Of a stretch of 23,162 nt of DNA, positions 1 through 20,099 are shown one piece after another. The stretch comes from a virus. Each line of letters opens with the position of its first letter. Position 1 is the first letter of the stretch. Location: positions 1-23,162 of IMG/VR virus record IMGVR_UViG_3300006734_000043; one strand, 5' to 3'. The position numbers and the translations under genes were made by a program. The notes beneath the pieces were generated by a model, which was not told where the DNA came from, made no database searches, and was given only the letters and a program-made list of their open reading frames with translations.

Positions 1-1184
1 CCAGAGGTTCCTGAGTACATAGAGGATCCAACCTTGTTTTTACCAATCTCAGTTGAATCTTTGTTTGCTGAGTGCACTTGATCTAAGTATCCAACGAACC
101 CACATTCTTCCACATAAAGTCTTCTGAAACGGTCTCCAGCTCCAATCTTCTTTCTGTCAGGAGTTATTACTGAAACCTGTAAGGTCGAACCTGTAAGGGT
201 TTTTTTGTTTTGCTTATTCTTTACTATGTGAGCTACACCACTTGTCCAGTTACCTTGTACTCTTTTGTAAAAGGGTCCTTGATATTTGGGCCTGTCAGGG
301 TTAGGATATTTGAACTGTCCTGGTTGGTTATCATAGAAACCATCTATAATTTTTAGAGACCTTTCTAAAGGTTCGCTGTCTCCTGAACCTGCGGCAAATA
401 GGAGTCTAGTTGAACATTTGTGTCTTTCTTCAAATGTCCTGACTCCTCCAAATGTCCACTCATGTAGAAGGTCCCCACCGTACAGACAATATGACTTCGC
501 AGTACCCCTACTACCCATAAAAATTCCATTCTCTCTAGAATTTTCATATAAAGCCTTACCTAAAGGTTTGTCGGACGGGTTATCTACTAGATAGAATCTT
601 GTAAGATACTCCCATGGGTCTACATAGATTTTTAATTCCCCGTTTGGTTGATAACAATTTTCAAGCTTCTTTCTTTGGTATTTATTTATGGAAAACCCAT
701 TCGCTAACCTCCAAACTAACTTGTTGCAGGTGTATATATCATCCTCTTCAAAACCACTAAACCCGTCACATAAAAGTAAGTAGGAGTATTGTAGCCACTC
801 CAAAGATGATAAATCTGGGCTCATTTCTATCCTTGAGTCTTCATCCCCTTCTTTATTACCAATAATCTTTACGTAGTTTACATAGTAAAAAAGTTTTGGC
901 ATAAAGTATACCCAAGTACCTTTATCGTTTATCCACTCCCCTTCTAAGCACTTTTTCCAGAAGTCATTCCAATAGTTTTCGAAAGTGAAAGATTCGGGAC
1001 TTATATTTTTGTAGTGGTCTCTTTGGTAAAAGAGCTCCCTGTCTTTCATTTTGTACAAGAAAAGGTCATAATCTTTTAAATCTCCAGCACTTATCTCTCT
1101 GACTGAGTGGTCAAACTCAACTTGTCTTGCCCCTTCTAAAGATTCTTTTTTATTTACTACTTTCCACAGTGGTAACTCCTTCAT
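1..1184 (-). CDS. terL: Terminase large subunit, N-terminal part (runs off the left edge)
   Basis: This frame is open from an ATG at 1184-1182 to the window edge (394 complete codons, no stop), so the C-terminal nuclease domain lies outside. TerL is the packaging motor ATPase that pumps DNA into the prohead and cuts concatemers. Residues 224-231 read GSRGTAKS, a terminase-style Walker A with K230; residues 356-360 read LYVEE, a Walker B with the catalytic acidic pair E359/E360; residues 391-393 read SGT, matching the coupling motif that follows Walker B. About 220 residues precede Walker A, a long N-terminal extension rich in Trp and Tyr. The start follows the stop of the upstream gene by one base (TAAAATG), so the two are probably translationally coupled. 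The motif order makes the family call strong; the phage subgroup cannot be told from this half. Confidence 0.88.
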   Translation of the reverse strand, partial: MKELPLWKVVNKKESLEGARQVEFDHSVREISAGDLKDYDLFLYKMKDRELFYQRDHYKNISPESFTFENYWNDFWKKCLEGEWINDKGTWVYFMPKLFYYVNYVKIIGNKEGDEDSRIEMSPDLSSLEWLQYSYLLLCDGFSGFEEDDIYTCNKLVWRLANGFSINKYQRKKLENCYQPNGELKIYVDPWEYLTRFYLVDNPSDKPLGKALYENSRENGIFMGSRGTAKSYCLYGGDLLHEWTFGGVRTFEERHKCSTRLLFAAGSGDSEPLERSLKIIDGFYDNQPGQFKYPNPDRPKYQGPFYKRVQGNWTSGVAHIVKNKQNKKTLTGSTLQVSVITPDRKKIGAGDRFRRLYVEECGFVGYLDQVHSANKDSTEIGKNKVGSSMYSGTS

Positions 1185-2118: not shown

Positions 2119-2249
2119 TGGTGGAGGTGCAGAGATTCAAACTCTGGTCCAGTCTAATCTTAAAATATAAAGTTTACCTTAGATAGCTCCGTTGACTCCT
2201 TGTGGAACCTAGGAGGCTTTAAATTGGGGCCAGTTTCCCGGCCAGCTCC
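2119..2249 (-). tRNA. Enlarged tRNA-like RNA (131 nt) with encoded CCA
   Basis: Read on the minus strand. The 3' end is diagnostic: T-arm CAGAG-TTTGAAT-CTCTG (2146-2130), acceptor strand CACCTCC (2129-2123), then A and CCA (2122-2119). The 5' end GGAGCTG (2249-2243) pairs with CACCTCC except for one C/C mismatch. GCC-GGGAAACT-GGC (2242-2229) is a short D-arm with GG in the loop. In the anticodon-stem position CCAATTTAA (2227-2219) pairs with TTAGACTGG (2157-2149) with one A/C mismatch and one wobble. Instead of a 7-nt loop this stem encloses 61 nt (2218-2158), containing CTCCT/AGGAG around 10 nt. I cannot assign an anticodon. It is not a normal tRNA; it could be an intron-bearing or degenerate tRNA, or a tRNA mimic. 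Confidence 0.55.
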
Positions 2250-2268
2250 ACCACTCTGTTTATTAGGA

Positions 2269-2490
2269 CTACAGAGAAAACTGTCTAGCAGCTTGGTTAA
2301 CTTGGAGTGCTGCCAACTCTGCAACTTCTTCTAACATAGAGCTAGAATTAGTACTTACGGTATTAAGTTCGTCAACTATCTTTTTGAAACCTTTGGTTTC
2401 CGTCACTAAGGAATTATAAGTCAGTGCTTTATCTGTCGATATCAATTCACCCCCATAATTTTCAAAGAGAATGTTTTGTGTTAATTTCAT
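2269..2490 (-). CDS. Hypothetical protein (73 aa)
   Basis: ATG at 2490-2488, stop TAG at 2271-2269. A small acidic, probably helical protein. The C-terminal half (residues about 40-70, with MLEEVAELAALQVNQAARQF) looks like an amphipathic helix. It overlaps the stop of the thioredoxin-like gene in ATGA fashion, so the two are translationally coupled. It ends 20 nt before the tRNA-like element on the same strand. No family is recognised. Confidence 0.65.
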   Translation of the reverse strand: MKLTQNILFENYGGELISTDKALTYNSLVTETKGFKKIVDELNTVSTNSSSMLEEVAELAALQVNQAARQFSL

Positions 2491-5613: not shown

Positions 5614-6010
5614 CTTTTACTATTTTATACCTTACTTGGAATATGGCTTCATCCTTTGACAAATCAATATTCTCAAAGAGGTCTAGTAGAACGATATCTC
5701 CACCCACCTTCTTAAGCCATCCCTTCTCTTCTATTTTATCCACATAAAGTTTTCTTGTGTCTTTTCTGTGCTTACCGAAGTAATATTCAAAAACTTCTGT
5801 TGCCTCTTTAGATTTAAAATCTTGTATGCCTTCGTTCTTACATACAATTAGTGCAACGAAAAACTCTTTTTCCCTATCGGTAAGCCATAAAGACCTGTCA
5901 ACCTTTATTGACGCATAAGTATCAATTAATGACATTATATAATATGCAGGATGCCCAAAAACTTGTAGGTCTTTGGCTAACAACATGTTATCTTTTCTTG
6001 CTATCTTCAT
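5603..6010 (-). CDS. Putative winged-helix protein, first gene of the minus-strand operon
   Basis: ATG at 6010. 135 residues. The middle (LTDREKEFFVALIVCKNEGI at 43-62, then RKDTRKLYVDKIEEKGWLKK) resembles a winged-helix domain: helices followed by a putative recognition helix and a short wing. Being the first gene behind the divergent promoter region (minus -7 box at 6044-6051), it could be a late-gene regulator or an HTH-containing assembly protein. The fold is inferred from residue pattern only; the function is unknown. The leader from the predicted transcription start is about 30 nt and lacks a Shine-Dalgarno sequence. Confidence 0.7.
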   Translation of the reverse strand: MKIARKDNMLLAKDLQVFGHPAYYIMSLIDTYASIKVDRSLWLTDREKEFFVALIVCKNEGIQDFKSKEATEVFEYYFGKHRKDTRKLYVDKIEEKGWLKKVGGDIVLLDLFENIDLSKDEAIFQVRYKIVKDDN

Positions 6011-6043
6011 GTCAATTAACTAACTTTCTTTGTAAATATTCTA

Positions 6044-6051
6044 CAAATATA
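6044..6051 (-). promoter_or_regulatory. Bacteroidota-type -7 box, minus-strand operon
   Basis: The minus strand reads TATATTTG, a full match to the TAnnTTTG -7 element of Bacteroidota primary sigma promoters, about 35 nt upstream of the start at 6010. No good TTG occurs at the usual upstream distance, so the -33 element is weak. The surroundings (6030-6130) are extremely A/T-rich with long A and T runs. Confidence 0.6.
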
Positions 6052-6147
6052 CAAAAAATTTTTTAAAAAGTAGAGGTTTTACAAAAAAATTTTGGGTAAT
6101 TTTTAAATTTTTTATCTTTAAAAAGGAGTTTTTCAATATTTTTTTCG

Positions 6148-6180: not shown

Positions 6181-7071
6181 ATGAGTAAAGTAAGTAAAGT
6201 AAGTAAAGGGAATCAACCAATAGCGATATTTCATAAAGAGGGTCATAAATACTTCATAAACGGTAAGCGTGGTTATTCGGTAAATAGGGTAAAGGATTTT
6301 TTTAAGGACCCCCTTGACCAGGGATATTGGCAAACCTACAAAGCAATAGAGTTAGCTATAGGGGTAGAAGAATTTAAGCACCTTAAAAAGAAAGAGTTTA
6401 AGTACCCTTTAATATCTAAGCCTCCGATGAGTTGGTTAGTTAATTTGGCAAACTTTAGATTAACACCAGCAGAGTTTTTTGAGTATAAGAATCAAATAAA
6501 ACAGAAGTGGAAAGATTCTCAAACTGATGGTACAAAATTCCACGACGATAGGGAAAATGAGCTTTACGAGAGGGGCTATGCAATAAACCCTTGGGATAAA
6601 AAGAAATATACTGTAAAAAAGTTTGAGAAGCAATATGACAATCAAAGTATTATAAGCGACCTTTCTGAGCTAGAGGATGGATGTTACCCAGAGCTTTTAG
6701 TTTGGCTAGAGGTCGGAGATATTTATATAACGGGTCAGATTGACCTCCCATACATAGGTACAGAGGGTGGTGTAAGGTACACAGATGTGGATGACTATAA
6801 GACTAATGCTAAACTTACTAGAACTTCTAGTTACAAATATCACAAACCTTTTCAACACCTAGATACATCAAAAATAACTAACTACTCGATACAAATGAGT
6901 GGTTACCAGTATATCCTTGAGTGCTGGGGTTACCAACCAAGAAATACAGCACTAACTCACTACAAAGATTACGATCCGTCTACTGGAAAGAGGTACGAGT
7001 TGAAATATTACAGAGACGAAGTAAAATTAATGTTTGAAACTTTTGCCAAGATTCATGGCAATGTAAAGTAA
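6181..7071 (+). CDS. PD-(D/E)XK family nuclease
   Basis: A 296-residue protein with RecB/Cas4-like nuclease motifs in order: GTKFH at 117-121 (the conserved His of this clade), E171 in PELLVW, GQID at 185-188 with metal-binding D188, and DYK at 205-207 as the D-x-K catalytic pair. These enzymes cut DNA with a two-metal mechanism; in phages they act in end resection, recombination or degradation of host DNA. The N-terminus is built from an exact 9-bp tandem repeat, giving SKVSKVSKG. It is the first gene of the plus-strand module, followed 19 nt later by an HTH protein. Fold assignment is strong; the exact biochemical role is not. Confidence 0.82.
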   Translation: MSKVSKVSKGNQPIAIFHKEGHKYFINGKRGYSVNRVKDFFKDPLDQGYWQTYKAIELAIGVEEFKHLKKKEFKYPLISKPPMSWLVNLANFRLTPAEFFEYKNQIKQKWKDSQTDGTKFHDDRENELYERGYAINPWDKKKYTVKKFEKQYDNQSIISDLSELEDGCYPELLVWLEVGDIYITGQIDLPYIGTEGGVRYTDVDDYKTNAKLTRTSSYKYHKPFQHLDTSKITNYSIQMSGYQYILECWGYQPRNTALTHYKDYDPSTGKRYELKYYRDEVKLMFETFAKIHGNVK

Positions 7072-9439: not shown

Positions 9440-11065
9440 ATGGAAAGGGAAAGGTATGCATGGCTAAACGAAGACAGTCGAAAATTTTTATCAAGGGGAT
9501 ACTTAGACGTAGAACCTGAAGAACGAATAAAAGAAATAGCTAATGAAGCTCAAAAACTACTTAGAGTCAAAGGGTTTGCGGAGAAATTTGAAGACTACAT
9601 GTCGAAAGGCTACTATTCGCTTGCGACCCCAGTGTGGACAAATTTCGGAAAAGGAGGAAAACTTCCTATATCGTGCTATGGTAGCACCTGTGATGACACC
9701 CTTGATTCGATTCTAAATGTGGGAAGGGAAATAGGAATGATGTCTAAGTACGGAGGTGGGACCTCTCTATACTTAGGTAACATTAGACCAAGAGGTAGTG
9801 AAATATCAACAGGTGGACACGCCGATGGTCCAGTTCATTATTCACACATATATGATACAATAATTGATAAATGTAGCCAAGGTCAATCTAGGAGAGGGGC
9901 ATGTGCCCTTTACTTAGATGTAGAGCACCCAGACATAATGGATTTCCTTGATATTGGGACTGAGGGTAACCCTATACAAAACCTACAGTTTGGTGTGAAT
10001 GTTACTGATAAATGGATAAACGAAATGATAGAAGGGGATATGGACAAAAGGTCTGTATGGTCAAAAGTTCTACAAAGAAGGTCAGAATTTGGCTTCCCTT
10101 ATATATTTTTTACAGACAACGTTAATAATAACACGCCCTATAAAAAGTTGGGTGGCAAAATAACCCACTCCAACCTTTGCACTGAAATCTTATTGCCAGA
10201 CAACCTTAAAGAGTCTTTTGTTTGTTGTATAGGTTCTATAAACCTACTCTATTGGGACGAGATTGAAAAAACTGATGCAGTAGAAACTTATGTGCTATTC
10301 CTGAACGCCGTGCTTAATGACTTCATTAAAAAGTCTAGGGGTTTGCCTGGAATGAAAAGGGCTTGGAGGTTTGCTAAAGATCACAGGGCTATAGGTGTTG
10401 GAGTGTTAGGGTATCACTCCTACTTACAGTCCAAATTAATACCTTTTGAGTCTCTCCAAGCAAAAGCCACAAACGAGAAAATCTTTTCCGAGATATCTAA
10501 AAGGGCAAACAAAGCTAGTAGGTGGTGTAACAAAGAATTAGGTTTTGAGAGTATAAGACCAGGTTACGCAAACAGTACACTAATGGCTATAGCCCCTACA
10601 AAATCTAGCTCCTACATTCTAGAGCAAGTTAGTATGGGTATTGAACCCTTAAAATCTAACTACTTTGTTAAAGACTTAGCAAAAGTTAAGTCTGTCTACA
10701 AAAACCCTTACCTAGAGTCAGAGTTAGAAAAGTATGGTCTTAACACCATAGAGGTTTGGAAGGAGATTTTAGATAAGGACGGGTCCTGTCAACACTTAGA
10801 CTTCCCGACTAAAGAGGTATTTAAATCCTTTATAGAGATCAGCCCTATGGAGATTATACAGCAAGCAGCTCAAAGGCAAAAATATATAGACCAAGGACAA
10901 TCAGTAAATCTTATGATACACCCTAGCATACCAGCCAAAGAGATTAACCAATTATATCTTGAAGCTTGGAGGATGGGCTTAAAAACACTGTATTACCAGT
11001 TTAGCCAAAGTGCTGCACAATCCTTTGCTAGAGAGATTAACCAATGTGCTTCATGTGAGGCTTAA
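9440..11065 (+). CDS. nrdA: Class I ribonucleotide reductase, large (catalytic) subunit
   Basis: NrdA reduces ribonucleoside diphosphates using the radical from NrdB. Catalytic residues are visible: C79 (PISCYGS) and C262 or C263 (FVCC) as the substrate-reducing pair, N245-x-C247-x-E249 (SNLCTE) carrying the thiyl radical, and the radical-relay pair Y518-Y519 (LYYQ). The C-terminus ends CASCEA, with C536 and C539 as the shuttle pair reduced by thioredoxin or glutaredoxin. At 541 residues it is short: the N-terminal ATP-cone is absent, so allosteric overall-activity control by dATP is probably lost, as in many phage enzymes. It forms an operon with nrdB; a thioredoxin-like partner is on the other strand (2487-2816). 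Confidence 0.95.
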   Translation: MERERYAWLNEDSRKFLSRGYLDVEPEERIKEIANEAQKLLRVKGFAEKFEDYMSKGYYSLATPVWTNFGKGGKLPISCYGSTCDDTLDSILNVGREIGMMSKYGGGTSLYLGNIRPRGSEISTGGHADGPVHYSHIYDTIIDKCSQGQSRRGACALYLDVEHPDIMDFLDIGTEGNPIQNLQFGVNVTDKWINEMIEGDMDKRSVWSKVLQRRSEFGFPYIFFTDNVNNNTPYKKLGGKITHSNLCTEILLPDNLKESFVCCIGSINLLYWDEIEKTDAVETYVLFLNAVLNDFIKKSRGLPGMKRAWRFAKDHRAIGVGVLGYHSYLQSKLIPFESLQAKATNEKIFSEISKRANKASRWCNKELGFESIRPGYANSTLMAIAPTKSSSYILEQVSMGIEPLKSNYFVKDLAKVKSVYKNPYLESELEKYGLNTIEVWKEILDKDGSCQHLDFPTKEVFKSFIEISPMEIIQQAAQRQKYIDQGQSVNLMIHPSIPAKEINQLYLEAWRMGLKTLYYQFSQSAAQSFAREINQCASCEA

Positions 11066-13774: not shown

Positions 13775-13959
13775 TGCCAGCAAGTAAACGACATGCTTCT
13801 AGAAGGAAAAAAGGGAGGTCTCAAGCCTCTAGAAGAAGAGAGGTTAAAATACATGAGGCCAGGATGTTAATTGACAAAGCTAGACAAGAGCAGCAAGAGA
13901 AGATTTTGGAGAGGATGAAGTCTGAAAACGCAGAACTTTTTAAGGATGAAGAAGAGTAA
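13771..13959 (+). CDS. Small highly basic then acidic coiled-coil protein (62 aa)
   Basis: Begins MMPASKRHASRRKKGRSQAS: the first 25 residues contain many Arg and Lys, the rest is a charged helix (IHEARMLIDKARQEQQEKIL). The bipolar arrangement suggests a nucleic-acid-binding N-terminus and a dimerising helix. It overlaps the upstream stop by 4 nt and the SET-domain gene by 14 nt. Function is unknown. Confidence 0.6.
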   Translation: MMPASKRHASRRKKGRSQASRRREVKIHEARMLIDKARQEQQEKILERMKSENAELFKDEEE

Positions 13960-14323
13960 AGTACATAGAAGAGAAGTATCTGCAGATGAGTATGGTGTAT
14001 TCTCCACGGGAAATTTTAACCGTGGGGATACTATCCATATATTACATGGGTTAATTAGCTTGCAACCCTCTAGGGAAAGTGTAGAAATTTACATAGTCAC
14101 AGAAGGTGACCAAGTACAAATAGGTCATATACTAGACCCATTGTTTAAGTACTGTAACCATTCATTCTCCCCCAACTGTGTAATTGATAAGTCTAAGCAA
14201 ACAGTTGTAGCTCTAAGAGACATAGAGGCTGGAGAAGAGTTGACTTTCAACTATCTAACAAACGAGTCTCAAATATCAAACCCCTTTAAAGATAAAGAAA
14301 CGGGTTTAGATGTTAAGAAATAA
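13946..14323 (+). CDS. SET-domain protein (putative lysine methyltransferase)
   Basis: SET domains transfer methyl from S-adenosylmethionine to protein lysines. The diagnostic elements are present: EYGVFST near residue 15 (the GxG/VF start), NHSFSPNC at 71-78 (the NHS..PNC SAM-binding motif), and GEELTFNY at 96-103 with catalytic-type Y103. It is compact (125 residues) and has no post-SET Cys cluster. The substrate cannot be inferred; host or phage proteins would both be possible, and the neighbours offer no clue beyond the small basic protein just upstream, which it overlaps by 14 nt. A protein methyltransferase among phage replication genes is unusual and worth study. Confidence 0.82.
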   Translation: MKKSKVHRREVSADEYGVFSTGNFNRGDTIHILHGLISLQPSRESVEIYIVTEGDQVQIGHILDPLFKYCNHSFSPNCVIDKSKQTVVALRDIEAGEELTFNYLTNESQISNPFKDKETGLDVKK

Positions 14324-16048: not shown

Positions 16049-16052
16049 CAAA

Positions 16053-16135
16053 TAAGACTATTAACAAATAAGACTAATAAGACTCTGATAAGACTTATAA
16101 GATTCCCTAAGACTCTAATAAGATTCTATAAGATT
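16053..16135 (+). repeat. Eight TAAGAYT repeats at about 10-bp spacing
   Basis: TAAGACT or TAAGATT begins at 16053, 16069, 16078, 16089, 16098, 16108, 16119 and 16129. The intervals after the first are 9, 11, 9, 10, 11 and 10 bp, close to one helical turn, so all copies face the same side of the DNA. Spacing is not a multiple of three, so this is not coding. More distant copies occur at 16242 and 17199. It lies just upstream of the terminator. Confidence 0.8.
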
Positions 16136-16176
16136 CCCCTAGACCTCATATAAGCAGCTCTAGGGGCTTTTCTTTT
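16136..16176 (+). terminator. Rho-independent terminator of the plus-strand module
   Basis: CCCCTAGA (16136-16143) pairs perfectly with TCTAGGGG (16159-16166) around a 15-nt loop, followed by CTTTTCTTTT. It directly follows the phased TAAGAYT array and closes the transcript of the exported-protein gene. Confidence 0.7.
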
Positions 16177-16341
16177 ATGCCCCCTACCCTAACTCCCCTT
16201 TATATAAAATCTCCCGCCCAGGAGACTCTAATAGACTCTAGTAAGACTGTAATAATACCCCTTATAATAAGACCCTTATTGCAAATACAATCCTTGTGAA
16301 TTATGATTACTCATATACTGGCTTTATGAATTTCTATTACT

Positions 16342-16382
16342 TTTCATGAATATTGATTATAAATGAATATATTTCATGAATA
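16342..16382 (+). repeat. Direct repeat TTTCATGAATA, 30 bp apart
   Basis: Two perfect 11-bp copies at 16342-16352 and 16372-16382, spaced 30 bp start to start, each containing the palindrome TTCATGAA. Confidence 0.6.
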
Positions 16383-16420
16383 ATAAACCCCTCATAATAA
16401 ACCCCCCACCCTATACACAT

Positions 16421-16469
16421 AATACTTAATAATATCCCTATAATACTCTTAATACTTAATAATATTCCC
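16421..16469 (+). repeat. Direct repeat AATACTTAATAATAT(T)CCC, 30 bp apart
   Basis: Copies at 16421-16438 and 16451-16469 match except for one inserted T. The 30-bp spacing equals that of the TTTCATGAATA pair just upstream. AATACT also occurs at 16442, 16481 and 16490. Confidence 0.6.
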
Positions 16470-16633
16470 GCAGATTTAATAATACTTATAATACTTTATA
16501 AGATTTCTATTATTATATGGTCTGCCCAATTAAACCACTCAAAAACTATTATATATGTAAAGAGAAGGGGTGCTATATACGTAATATCCTTCCTCGTTTG
16601 GTTTTTTGCATACCCCCCCTTATAGCTAAGTTG

Positions 16634-16709
16634 CTGATTATCAATGCTTTACATATTATAAAAATATATATGTGAATAGCTTCTCGCCGTAACTAACTGA
16701 TTATCAATG
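16634..16709 (+). repeat. Direct repeat CTGATTATCAATG, 63 bp apart
   Basis: Perfect 13-bp copies at 16634-16646 and 16697-16709, each followed by a related TTACA(C)AT segment. They resemble iteron-like initiator binding sites. Confidence 0.55.
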
Positions 16710-17034
16710 AATTACACATAGCTGAAATAAATATGTAAAATTAAATGTAAAAACATATTATAATAAATAATATATGTAAGTAATTGATTGGCAGAGTATT
16801 GTAACATATTAGTATTATTTATATGTATAAGTGCCTGGCTGCCAGACATATAACCCGTAATACATATAACTTTTTTTAATATATAAAGCACTGAGCGACA
16901 ATTTCCTATATATTATCTTATTTTATATATATCTAATACATATTAAATAAATATAAATATGAAATATACCTTAAAAGTGGTACGATTATCTCAATAAGTC
17001 GCCGTATATTCGTAGTAGAAAAAGGAAATAGATA

Positions 17035-17219
17035 TAGACCATATATATATGGTAGACCTATAAAGGGGTTGGTTACCCTTATGGACAGGTAGACCATACG
17101 AACGTCTTAAATGTAATAATGGACAGTTGTCCACCTGGCAGACCTATGCACAGTTGTGCCGTGATGGGATGTTAGACATTCAAGGCAAGTAGACCAAATA
17201 AGACTGAAAAAATTAGACC
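17035..17219 (+). promoter_or_regulatory. TAGACC cluster with 16-bp palindrome upstream of the orphan gene
   Basis: TAGACC occurs at 17035, 17053, 17090, 17190 and 17214, with CAGACC at 17139. The first two flank a perfect palindrome ACC-ATATATATAT-GGT (17038-17053). Short hairpins such as GGACA-GT-TGTCC (17121-17132) lie between. This looks like a multi-site operator or RNA leader controlling the gene at 17263. No clear TAnnTTTG box was found. Confidence 0.45.
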
Positions 17220-17262
17220 TAATAGATTAATGTAATTTATTATATCACTAAACTATTTAGTT

Positions 17263-17820
17263 ATGTCAAATTACGTTAATTTTTACACAGGTACTGAAAC
17301 TTTGATTGGAAATGTCAAGAAGTCTGTTCAGACATTGACAAAGGCATCGCATGTCGTTAATTTCCTAAGGGATGACAAAAATAAACAACTTGTTATCTTT
17401 GGGCTGCTAACGTATGCTTTGGGAAGAAAGTTTGAATGTTTGGGGTCAAACCGCAAAACATATGATAACTCCCGTGCACTTGCATGTATGTTTGAACTAA
17501 GTACAACAGAGGAAGCTGGCGAGATTGCTTCGTTCTTGGGGCACTTTATTGCTAAAGGTGCACAGATGAATCTTAGCCTTGTAACATCTGCAATGCGGAA
17601 GGCTTGTACTATGACACCTAAAGCTAAATTTGACACCATTTTGAATGGTGGGCAATATGGTGCTGACGTTTATCCAGGTTACCCTAAGCTCAGCGCTTTA
17701 CTCGAATCTAAGCTAAAAGATTATGAGAAGACTATTGATGCCCGTATCGAAGGTGGTGTCGAAATAGGTGGTGTTGAGTTGATAACCAACAAAGGTAAAA
17801 AAGCCTTACAAGGTGCTTAG
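17263..17820 (+). CDS. Unknown orphan protein flanked by long non-coding regions (185 aa)
   Basis: ATG at 17263. A soluble, mixed helical protein with no recognised motif. Segments include NVKKSVQTLTKASHVVNFLRD, LVIFGLLTYALGRKF and the C-terminal GGVEIGGVELITNKGKKALQ. It stands alone between 1.2 kb of repeat-rich DNA and about 1 kb of non-coding sequence and ends in a near-perfect terminator 13 nt after the stop, a layout expected for a highly expressed, separately controlled gene. Codons seem more balanced and less AT-biased than those of the neighbours (for example GCT, GGT, AAG frequent), which fits strong expression or separate origin. A replication initiator acting on the adjacent repeats is possible but purely positional. 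Confidence 0.8.
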   Translation: MSNYVNFYTGTETLIGNVKKSVQTLTKASHVVNFLRDDKNKQLVIFGLLTYALGRKFECLGSNRKTYDNSRALACMFELSTTEEAGEIASFLGHFIAKGAQMNLSLVTSAMRKACTMTPKAKFDTILNGGQYGADVYPGYPKLSALLESKLKDYEKTIDARIEGGVEIGGVELITNKGKKALQGA

Positions 17821-17833
17821 TACCTAATATATG

Positions 17834-17860
17834 AGAGTGCAAGAAATTGCACTCTTTTTT
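17834..17860 (+). terminator. Strong rho-independent terminator
   Basis: AGAGTGCAA (17834-17842), GAAA tetraloop, TTGCACTCT (17847-17855), then a T run to 17860. A 9-bp perfect stem with a GNRA loop, directly after the orphan gene. It separates that gene from the downstream RNA region. Confidence 0.93.
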
Positions 17861-18850
17861 ATATGTTTATTTTGGGTTTTACGACATTGCTCGTATGGTG
17901 TAACTCGTATGGTGTGCATCTCCATGCAACTATACTGTTATGTCAATGCGAGGTTGTTCAACCTTTTATAATATTAGCTATTGTAGGTTTGATGGGAACG
18001 TAGCAAGTAAACGTCCTTATGCTAGTGTGGATATGCTTGTCTATCGGGCACAGTTTGTGCCGTCCTTTATTGGCTATTATATTACAGTTTGTAGTATGGT
18101 AGTGCTTTTCGAGGCAACAATATTGTGAATGAACATGATAGATGACATATAAGGCATTAAATAATAATACTTGTAATGCTTATAGGCGCATGGTTTATGT
18201 AGCCTGTCTTGGCTTTCTTGCGTTATTAGATACAGTTTGTATTAATGACATAATTGCGGATTGCGAGTATTTTACTCTTTAATATCTTGGGATAGAAAAT
18301 CTGCACTTGTCGGCACAGACCTTGTGTCGTACATAGTCCATATAAGTATATCTAAAACCGTCCTTAGACCTAGGAGCAGCTTAATTGTGGGTACGGGATA
18401 GGCGGGAGATGGCACTTCCTTTAAACAACAGGCCCAGTCATCCAATAATGCTTTGACATTTATTCGTAAGATGGGAACGAAGGCTCGACACGAAGCGTGT
18501 CTAGAATGGGATTGGTATGCCCTTTGGGATGTTACCTTTATGTAATTTTACTCATTCAATAGGCGGCGTAGTCAGTGCGTAATGTGCTGCGAGTGTCTTA
18601 GAGGTGTAGGTAGGGGGATCCGTCATTTAACGGGTTCATCTATGTAAAAAGGAAGACAGGCTTATCCAATTATTAAACCTGCATGCCATACTGTATATGG
18701 ATAAACAAAAAATATTCAACCCTTCCAGGAATCAGTATGTCATAACGTCAACGGTTGACACTTATTATTAGTATAAAAACAAGTTATCAATGTCCAGGTA
18801 TTAAATGTGTACGGCTTACACAGCTTGTTTTAGAAAATTTTATAAGTAAA
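17861..18850 (+). ncRNA. Candidate large structured non-coding RNA (about 1 kb)
   Basis: No credible gene occupies this stretch, yet it is less AT-biased than the control region and dense in stems. Examples: AGGTT/AACCT; GGCACA/TGTGCC (18047-18061); CGGCACA/TGTGTCG (18311-18329, 7 bp); GACACG/CGTGTC (18487-18501); GTCAA/TTGAC near 18748; TGTGTA/TACACA (18806-18822) nested within AAAACAAG/CTTGTTTT (18776-18783 with 18824-18831). It lies between a terminator and a tRNA-like element followed by another terminator (to 19049). Large ornate phage RNAs called GOLLD and ROOL also occur next to tRNAs. I do not recall their consensus well enough to assign either. The short ORF at 17940-18128 is not convincing. 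Confidence 0.55.
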
Positions 18851-18970
18851 GAGGCAAGACTATTGGAGTAATGCTTAGAATATTTACAGATATTCGTATC
18901 TGTTTACGTGGCACGTATTGTGCCATAGGTACAAATGCATTTATTGTCGGTTCGAATCCGACCTTGCCTC
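18851..18970 (+). tRNA. Enlarged tRNA-like RNA (about 120 nt), no encoded CCA
   Basis: Acceptor AGGCAAG (18852-18858) pairs with CTTGCCT (18963-18969); G18851 could also pair with C18970 to make eight pairs. The T-arm GTCGG-TTCGAAT-CCGAC (18946-18962) is canonical. ACT-ATTGG-AGT (18859-18869) is a minimal D-arm with GG in the loop. In the anticodon-stem position AATGC (18870-18874) pairs with GCATT (18937-18941), and a normal 4-nt variable region TATT follows. The stem encloses 62 nt (18875-18936) instead of 7, with two perfect hairpins: ACAGATA-TTCG-TATCTGT and TGGCAC-GTATT-GTGCCA. No anticodon can be read with confidence; CAA (Leu) would result if the insertion were an intron ending at 18931. 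Confidence 0.58.
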
Positions 18971-19013
18971 CTATATTATATAACATCCATTAGATTGATT
19001 GATTTAGTTTTTG

Positions 19014-19049
19014 GGCCTACCATGTCATTGTATGTGGTGGGCCTTTTTT
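19014..19049 (+). terminator. Terminator after the tRNA-like element
   Basis: GGCCTACCA (19014-19022) pairs with TGGTGGGCC (19035-19043), one wobble, 12-nt loop, followed by TTTTTT. It would end the transcript that carries the large RNA candidate and the tRNA-like element. Confidence 0.88.
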
Positions 19050-19069: not shown

Positions 19070-19294
19070 ATGGCAACTACAAGAGACAAGTATTTAGCGT
19101 CTAAAAGGGCTGCTATATGCGCTCTAAGGGACGCAAAAAGAAATCCTGAACCTGACTCCGAATTTGTAAATATCTCTCAACACAACAAGTTTACTACAAG
19201 GGAGTTTGGTGGCTTGGAGCATGGTAAAATATACCGAAAGGCTAAAAATCCTAAGAGTGATATGCCTGGCTATGCTTGGGGTACTTACTTTTAG
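19070..19294 (+). CDS. Small basic hypothetical protein (74 aa) ending GTYF
   Basis: I start at ATG 19070 (MATTRDKYLAS). A longer frame reaching back to 18935 would run through the tRNA-like element and the terminator, so it is rejected. The product is Lys/Arg-rich, hydrophilic, without recognised motifs, and ends WGTYF. The following gene also ends in GTYF. It is the first protein gene after the non-coding region. Confidence 0.68.
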   Translation: MATTRDKYLASKRAAICALRDAKRNPEPDSEFVNISQHNKFTTREFGGLEHGKIYRKAKNPKSDMPGYAWGTYF

Positions 19295-19865: not shown

Positions 19866-20099
19866 ATGATAGTCTTTAATATTATCGCCAATTTCACAGT
19901 CACTCAGATTGTTTGTACTCTGTGCTATGCCATTATTAGTTTGCTATTTTCTTGGGTAGGCCAGCTAGAATTCTATCAGGTAGCTAATAGTGGGTTCCTT
20001 GTATTCTATGCTATTAGCTCTTTAACGATGCAATGTGTTGCATTTGTTGAGTCAATAGAGGAAGACCCAGGTACAGTTTCATTCATCTATAAATTCTAA
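19866..20099 (+). CDS. Small membrane protein (77 aa, two transmembrane segments)
   Basis: ATG at 19866. Hydrophobic residues 2-30 (IIANFTVTQIVCTLCYAIIS and on to LLFSWV) and 42-60 (SGFLVFYAISSLTMQCVAFV) form two likely membrane helices, followed by an acidic loop (ESIEEDPG). Function is unknown; holin-like or envelope-modifying roles would be guesses. It stands behind the strong terminator, so it probably has its own promoter. Confidence 0.65.
   Translation: MIVFNIIANFTVTQIVCTLCYAIISLLFSWVGQLEFYQVANSGFLVFYAISSLTMQCVAFVESIEEDPGTVSFIYKF

Follow-up and report, generated by a model that had tools for sequence, protein, structure and literature searches.

A candidate large noncoding RNA gene with a 3′ tRNA-like domain in a crAss-like phage

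The region described here (~1.1 kb) is probably an orphan large phage noncoding RNA carrying a 3′ tRNA-like domain. Its architecture is like that of the GOLLD and ROOL RNAs, and membership of either family is not supported. The more specific reading, that 17861 to ~19050 of the plus strand would by itself form a complete gene for a noncoding RNA in a crAss-like phage, is one to which we give even chances on the strength of the sequence. We favour it because the region has two terminators, no coding signal, an odd base composition, a recurrent hairpin apex, repeated k-mers and a tRNA-like element, and because there is precedent in the lncRNAs of phages ICP1 and K and in the pseudo-tRNA of GOLLD. 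Counting against it, a homologue was not found in our searches, neither the folding energy nor the long-range pairing of the body as a whole exceeds chance, the 3′ half is plain and no promoter pattern matched.

The window, by which we mean the whole stretch of DNA analysed, is a 23,162-base IMG/VR virus record. Its TerL fragment (3–1184, minus strand) is 28% identical to the TerL of Cellulophaga phage phi14:2, which is classed in the Crassvirales, Steigviridae, and the gene preceding TerL is common to both. The best IMG/VR relative of the window TerL is 31% identical, and TerL alignments gave 25–31% only. By this comparison the window appears to belong to a deep crAss-like lineage. The gene upstream of the region, 17263–17820, encodes a protein with no PDB or PHROGs match, and its structure prediction (pLDDT 34) is unusable. 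The features of the region are collected in Table 1.

Table 1. Sequence features and predicted structures of the candidate RNA region and its surroundings (window coordinates)
Feature	Position	Strand	Details
Upstream intrinsic terminator	17833..17856	+	10-bp stem GAGAGTGCAA/TTGCACTCTT, then T run
Candidate noncoding RNA body, ~990 nt	17861..18850	+	no frame with a codon score above about zero; U>A
5′ long imperfect hairpin	17874..17964	+	helix pair probabilities 0.92–1.0
Predicted central domain	17983..18682	+	helices 17983–17994/18671–18682, 18029–18033/18663–18667, 18035–18042/18654–18661
Repeat GATGGGAACG(T/A)AG	copy 1 17991..18003, copy 2 18470..18482	+	
Recurrent-apex hairpin 1	18047..18061	+	GGCAC-AGUUU-GUGCC
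Recurrent-apex hairpin 2	18073..18103	+	13-bp stem GCUAUUAUAUUAC/GUAGUAUGGUAGU, apex as in hairpin 1
Recurrent-apex hairpin 3	18222..18249	+	GUUAUUAGAUAC-AGUUU-GUAUUAAUGAC
Outlying hairpin, short apex	17120..17133	+	UGGAC-AGUU-GUCCA, upstream of gene 17263–17820
Outlying hairpin, short apex	17148..17159	+	GCAC-AGUU-GUGC
tRNA-like element	18851..18970	+	8-bp acceptor 18851–18858/18963–18970, GAGGCAAG/CTTGCCTC
Insert hairpin of tRNA-like element	18886..18903	+	ACAGATA-TTCG-TATCTGT; a second local fold, incompatible with this one, is also predicted
Insert hairpin of tRNA-like element	18909..18925	+	TGGCAC-GTATT-GTGCCA
T arm of tRNA-like element	18946–18962	+	GTCGG-TTCGAAT-CCGAC, perfect
Downstream intrinsic terminator	19013..19044	+	13-bp stem, then TTTTTATTTA

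The best evidence for selection acting on RNA structure in this region is a hairpin apex that recurs. The window has three copies of the motif ACAGUUUGU (18050, 18084 and 18232), all inside the region and on the plus strand. Each caps a complementary stem with a sequence of its own, which adds 3, 11 and 3 pairs, respectively, to those of the motif. When identical hairpin tips were tallied without a pre-chosen motif, three were reached by 2 of 1,000 shuffles, and eight coding control windows never gave more than one. A short form, ACAGUUGU, is also present three times in the window; the copies at 17123 and 17150 sit on stems in the noncoding leader of gene 17263–17820, and the one at 14201, within a gene, is stemless. 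Stems that differ beneath an identical loop amount to covariation inside one molecule. The weight of this covariation is limited because the copies number only three to five and the short form was pooled after the first three had been seen. The GGCAC/GUGCC stem of the first of these hairpins is found again in the second insert hairpin of the tRNA-like element (18909..18925).

The tRNA-like element that the original prediction placed next to the body is indeed there, at 18851–18970 on the plus strand. It has a paired acceptor and a paired T arm with the consensus TTCRANY loop, the features by which we call it tRNA-like. It is without a clear D stem and without an encoded CCA; there is a possible anticodon-like 5-bp stem (AATGC/GCATT), and an insert of ~60 nt with two hairpins replaces the anticodon loop. 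The element folds at z −4.8, and 0 of 200 shuffles did as well. An intact acceptor (7/7) plus an intact T arm (5/5) is rare by chance: a scan for the pair over 1.3 Mb, comprising the window and its relatives, gave about one chance match of more than 95 nt per set, and therefore ~0.02 would be expected in the window. The element was rejected as a tRNA gene, with 18 bits from the Rfam tRNA model against a 29-bit cut-off and no ARAGORN call; ARAGORN found no tRNA gene anywhere in the window. The region was likewise rejected as a tmRNA, there being no match in it to RF00023 or to a permuted tmRNA model. The only such match is the tmRNA gene at 2119–2454 (minus strand, RF00023, 53 bits); a 73-aa ORF that overlaps it is probably spurious. 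Odd tRNA-like elements can be seen in crAss-like TerL relatives of the window. In one (L293, ~5916–6125, minus strand) two acceptor/T-arm sets are apparently interleaved and Rfam calls none; two others (L319 3338–3482 and L326 70–214) have a tRNA-like sequence in which the variable region is oversized, that of L319 being without an Rfam call.

The folding statistics of the body are less distinctive. The claim that it is hairpin-rich turned out to be marginal: there are 11 perfect hairpins of at least 5 bp versus 6.1 ± 2.3 in shuffled sequence (9 of 200 as good), and some coding stretches of equal length also reach 11–12. The folding energy of the 990-nt body is ordinary (z = −1.7, where coding controls range from −0.6 to −3.8). 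Its long-range pairing is at chance level, as 23 of 100 shuffles reach as much, and the 12+5+8-bp closure of the 700-nt central domain was dropped as evidence on that count, the predicted closing helices (17983..18682) having P 0.94–0.97. The 3′ half (18401–18850) folds no better than chance (z +0.5); the 5′ part alone (17861–18400) gives z −3.65, which we grade as marginal. Within this part, the long imperfect hairpin bears a direct repeat, CTCGTATGGTGT, at 17890–17901 and 17904–17915. Repeated k-mers are in excess: three 8-mers are present at least three times versus 0.29 expected (5 of 500 shuffles). Two strong local folds lie elsewhere in the window. The best of the entire window (z −5.3) is at 1721–1840, between the tmRNA and gene 1186–1725. 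The other (z −4.8), at 13921–14040, overlaps the phage gene 13946–14323, whose product has a SET domain (PF00856, E 2.9e-12).

The main rival to the noncoding RNA reading is that the region is a nonfunctional spacer of ~1 kb, left by gene loss or recombination, followed by a tRNA gene that has decayed, with its acceptor and T arm surviving by chance. We regard this as unlikely, though a real minority possibility. It would sit well with a global fold, long-range pairing and 3′ half at chance, with a hairpin count that is only marginal, and with a tRNA-like element scoring below the tRNA cut-off; moreover, the window has another noncoding stretch of 1.2 kb, at 16049–17262. Three identical apices on different stems are nevertheless hard to attribute to a spacer, and the acceptor and T arm are both perfect, unlike the products of decay. 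The base composition also speaks against it. The body has A 0.283 and T 0.334, and its A minus T of −0.05 is outside the range of all 21 plus-strand genes tested, the lowest of which has −0.009; it is unlike that of stretch 16049–17262 as well. Finally, there are terminators on both flanks, as had been predicted: plus-strand terminator-like stems stand at 17833–17856, where a 10-bp stem and T run terminate gene 17263–17820, and at 19013–19044. No match to a Bacteroidetes-type promoter pattern was found near 17861.

The other noncoding stretch has a character of its own. It is AT-rich (GC 0.30), with TAAGACT repeats clustered at 16053, 16069, 16078, 16089, 16108 and 16242, and TAGACC repeats at 17035, 17053, 17090, 17190 and 17214 with small hairpins interleaved. 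It is possibly an origin or leader.

A second alternative is that the region regulates the genes from 19070 on, as their long leader or attenuator, with the tRNA-like element and the downstream terminator as its switch. Read-through could be conditional with a terminator so placed, after the tRNA-like element and before the next gene. We nevertheless think this improbable: a leader of 1 kb would be long, riboswitch and T-box models do not match, the terminator at 19013–19044 is strong, and the next gene has a separate start at 19070.

That the region might be a GOLLD or ROOL RNA had been proposed from its size and context. As for the context, the region is noncoding and in a phage, and its neighbour is a tRNA-like element in place of a tRNA gene. 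GOLLD is a large noncoding phage RNA, in many cases longer than 800 nt, and ROOL is an abundant one capable of RNA-only assembly; both are often near tRNA genes (PMC12286853). GOLLD sometimes has a pseudo-tRNA inside (PMC6582537). The identification is not supported. A scan of 4,227 Rfam models, covering GOLLD, ROOL, OLE and HEARO, gave no match to any of these four in the region at E≤10; OLE and HEARO we take to be Rfam families and hence among the models scanned. No family reached its cut-off in the region. Direct searches with RF02032 and RF03087 also returned no match at E≤10, neither having a positive control above the cut-off: for the GOLLD core (RF02032) no genome with a known GOLLD was among those searched, and the ROOL model (RF03087) was matched neither in the region nor in the control genomes. 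A group I or II intron was rejected, as no Rfam intron model matched the region at E≤10, and minus-strand matches to Baculoviridae_NAE and aCoV-3UTR, far under their cut-offs, were set aside as chance. What stands of the original prediction is a large noncoding phage RNA beside a tRNA-like element, which remains the best reading; its GOLLD/ROOL assignment is unsupported.

A very divergent GOLLD or ROOL, below the reach of current Rfam models, is a slim prospect. Size, phage context and the tRNA-like neighbour would fit (PMC12286853), as would the pseudo-tRNA known in GOLLD (PMC6582537). Neither model matches at E≤10, however, and the 3′ region of GOLLD is called universally conserved (PMC12286853) and should show in a member.

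It is scarcely credible that the region instead encodes small unrecognised proteins in its ORFs of 46–62 aa: such ORFs exist (for example 17940–18128), and the minus-strand ORF 18272–18445 (57 aa) reaches +0.14 in codon score, near the bottom of the gene range, but the plus-strand ORFs lie between −0.01 and −0.22, where 29 of 30 genes have +0.13 to +0.40, and translated fragments, the minus-strand frame included, have no credible Pfam or PHROGs match (best E 0.07–0.1). The codon score was trained on 30 annotated genes, of which only 19866–20099 (−0.04) falls outside the stated range in its own frame. Tested in 240-base windows in six frames, 17861–18940 reaches 0.01 at most. With plus-strand ORFs of 62 aa or less, the region is thus without a convincing ORF, in agreement with the original prediction, and recoded genetic codes (TAG, TGA or both read through) opened none.

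We found no homologue of the RNA region in INPHARED, at those IMG/VR and GTDB loci to which protein queries led, or among crAss-like relatives. At the DNA level, INPHARED has no similarity to the region and crAss-like IMG/VR records gave short chance matches only. Among the protein queries, gene 17263–17820 was searched against IMG/VR, INPHARED and GTDB and, at the sensitivity of these searches, had no relative; TerL alone found nothing as an IMG/VR query for loci, and GTDB scans with either protein found nothing. The exonuclease (12606) reached 20 IMG/VR loci, none syntenic. NrdA reached 80 loci at ~70% identity, where only NrdB was also common and no RNA was seen. A scan of IMG/VR for two copies of ACAGTTTGT returned 119 stretches; on inspection most were noise from coding sequence or tandem repeats, and none was similar to the RNA.

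A different noncoding RNA is conserved in this group of phages. An unannotated noncoding stretch is common to phi14:2 (L166 2905–3545) and the metagenome phage G003 (L157 ~6315–6952). Blastn aligns 163 nt at 65%, there are blocks of 25–30 identical bases, and one hairpin has two pairs changed on both sides. The metagenome phage G017 carries part of the same RNA at its contig end. Searched against IMG/VR, the conserved block of the phi14:2 RNA finds phi14:2, G003 and two coding chance matches only. Our model of the conserved 3′ block (R1) scores its two members at 174–177 bits; its best score in the window is 8.5 bits, at 16719–16856 and outside the region, and the window RNA was rejected as a member. 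Noncoding islands exist in the crAss-like group, and by this model the window RNA is not detectably of the same family.

Further elements accompany this RNA in its two phages. There is a tmRNA in phi14:2 (L166 4031–4502) and a tmRNA-like gene in G003 (L157 ~10158–10710) that Rfam's cut-off misses. The phi14:2 record fills the places of the noncoding RNA and the tmRNA with small hypothetical ORFs (gp007–gp009 and gp012–gp014). A second noncoding stretch is common to the two phages (L166 1280–1600 and L157 8630–8945), with a 28-nt block around CTGTATCAGCAGTTGTGTTTATTC that is 96% identical in phages otherwise diverged. Directly after a noncoding stretch, at L166 ~1758–1851, phi14:2 has a degenerate tRNA-like element with the T arm GAAGGTTCGAATCCTTC, in a layout similar to that of the window's tRNA-like element.

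How might the candidate RNA be made, and how might it act? The transcript would be at most ~1.2 kb, bounded by the two terminators; it would bear three stem-loops of the same apex on unrelated stems and end in the tRNA-like element. Host tRNA-maturation enzymes may recognise the acceptor/T-arm part of this element, with RNase P cutting at the 18850/18851 junction and 3′ trimming following after 18970. The 1-kb body would thereby gain a defined 3′ end, or would stay protected by a tRNA-like cap. We infer that the body would act as RNA, each of its C-AGUU(U)-G loops giving the same protein a place to dock or taking part in loop–loop contacts. Such docking would make a scaffold or sponge with an architecture like that of GOLLD and ROOL, which can be abundant and form RNA cages. 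To our knowledge, the function of large phage RNAs such as these is not known. Taken to its full extent, this proposal describes a new class of large RNA: a 1-kb body on an end-forming 3′ tRNA-like domain, whose C-AGUU(U)-G loops, found in the leader of 17263–17820 as well, recruit a phage protein (possibly the product of that gene) into a scaffold or sponge. As a whole, this chain of conjectures is a long shot. If the RNA is unrelated to GOLLD and ROOL, its presence in a crAss-like lineage would suggest that phages evolved large RNA particles or scaffolds several times over, and the tRNA-like tail suggests that host tRNA-maturation enzymes may help to make such RNAs.

Set beside known systems, the region is like GOLLD (RF02032) in being large, noncoding and from a phage, and has a tRNA-like element alongside where GOLLD has a tRNA or pseudo-tRNA; it differs in that the window has no RF02032 match (E≤10) and no tRNA gene. 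As a large noncoding phage RNA candidate beside a tRNA-like element it also resembles ROOL (RF03087), but there is no match at E≤10 and its body is longer than the 574-position model. Also comparable are abundant transcripts from ORF-less gaps in ICP1 and phage K that are assigned to neither family (PMC7567579, PMC9241854): the ICP1 gap of ~1 kb yields an abundant transcript of ~800 nt (PMC7567579), and the phage K lncRNAs adjoin tRNA genes (PMC9241854). The region is likewise an ORF-less gap of ~1 kb with a tRNA-like element alongside; it differs in having no DNA similarity in INPHARED. The tRNA-like domain of tmRNA (RF00023) offers a parallel for the 3′ element, having an acceptor and T arm, no D stem and an insert replacing the anticodon. 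The acceptor halves of the window element are only ~104 nt apart, however, with no tag reading frame, and the window has its separate tmRNA elsewhere. The noncoding RNA of phi14:2 and G003 differs in that its 3′-block model finds nothing convincing in the window. It is nonetheless also large and noncoding, lies on the arm opposite TerL in related crAss-like phages and is without an Rfam family; present in the cultured phi14:2, in G003 and in part in G017, it gives this group an example that can be studied by experiment.
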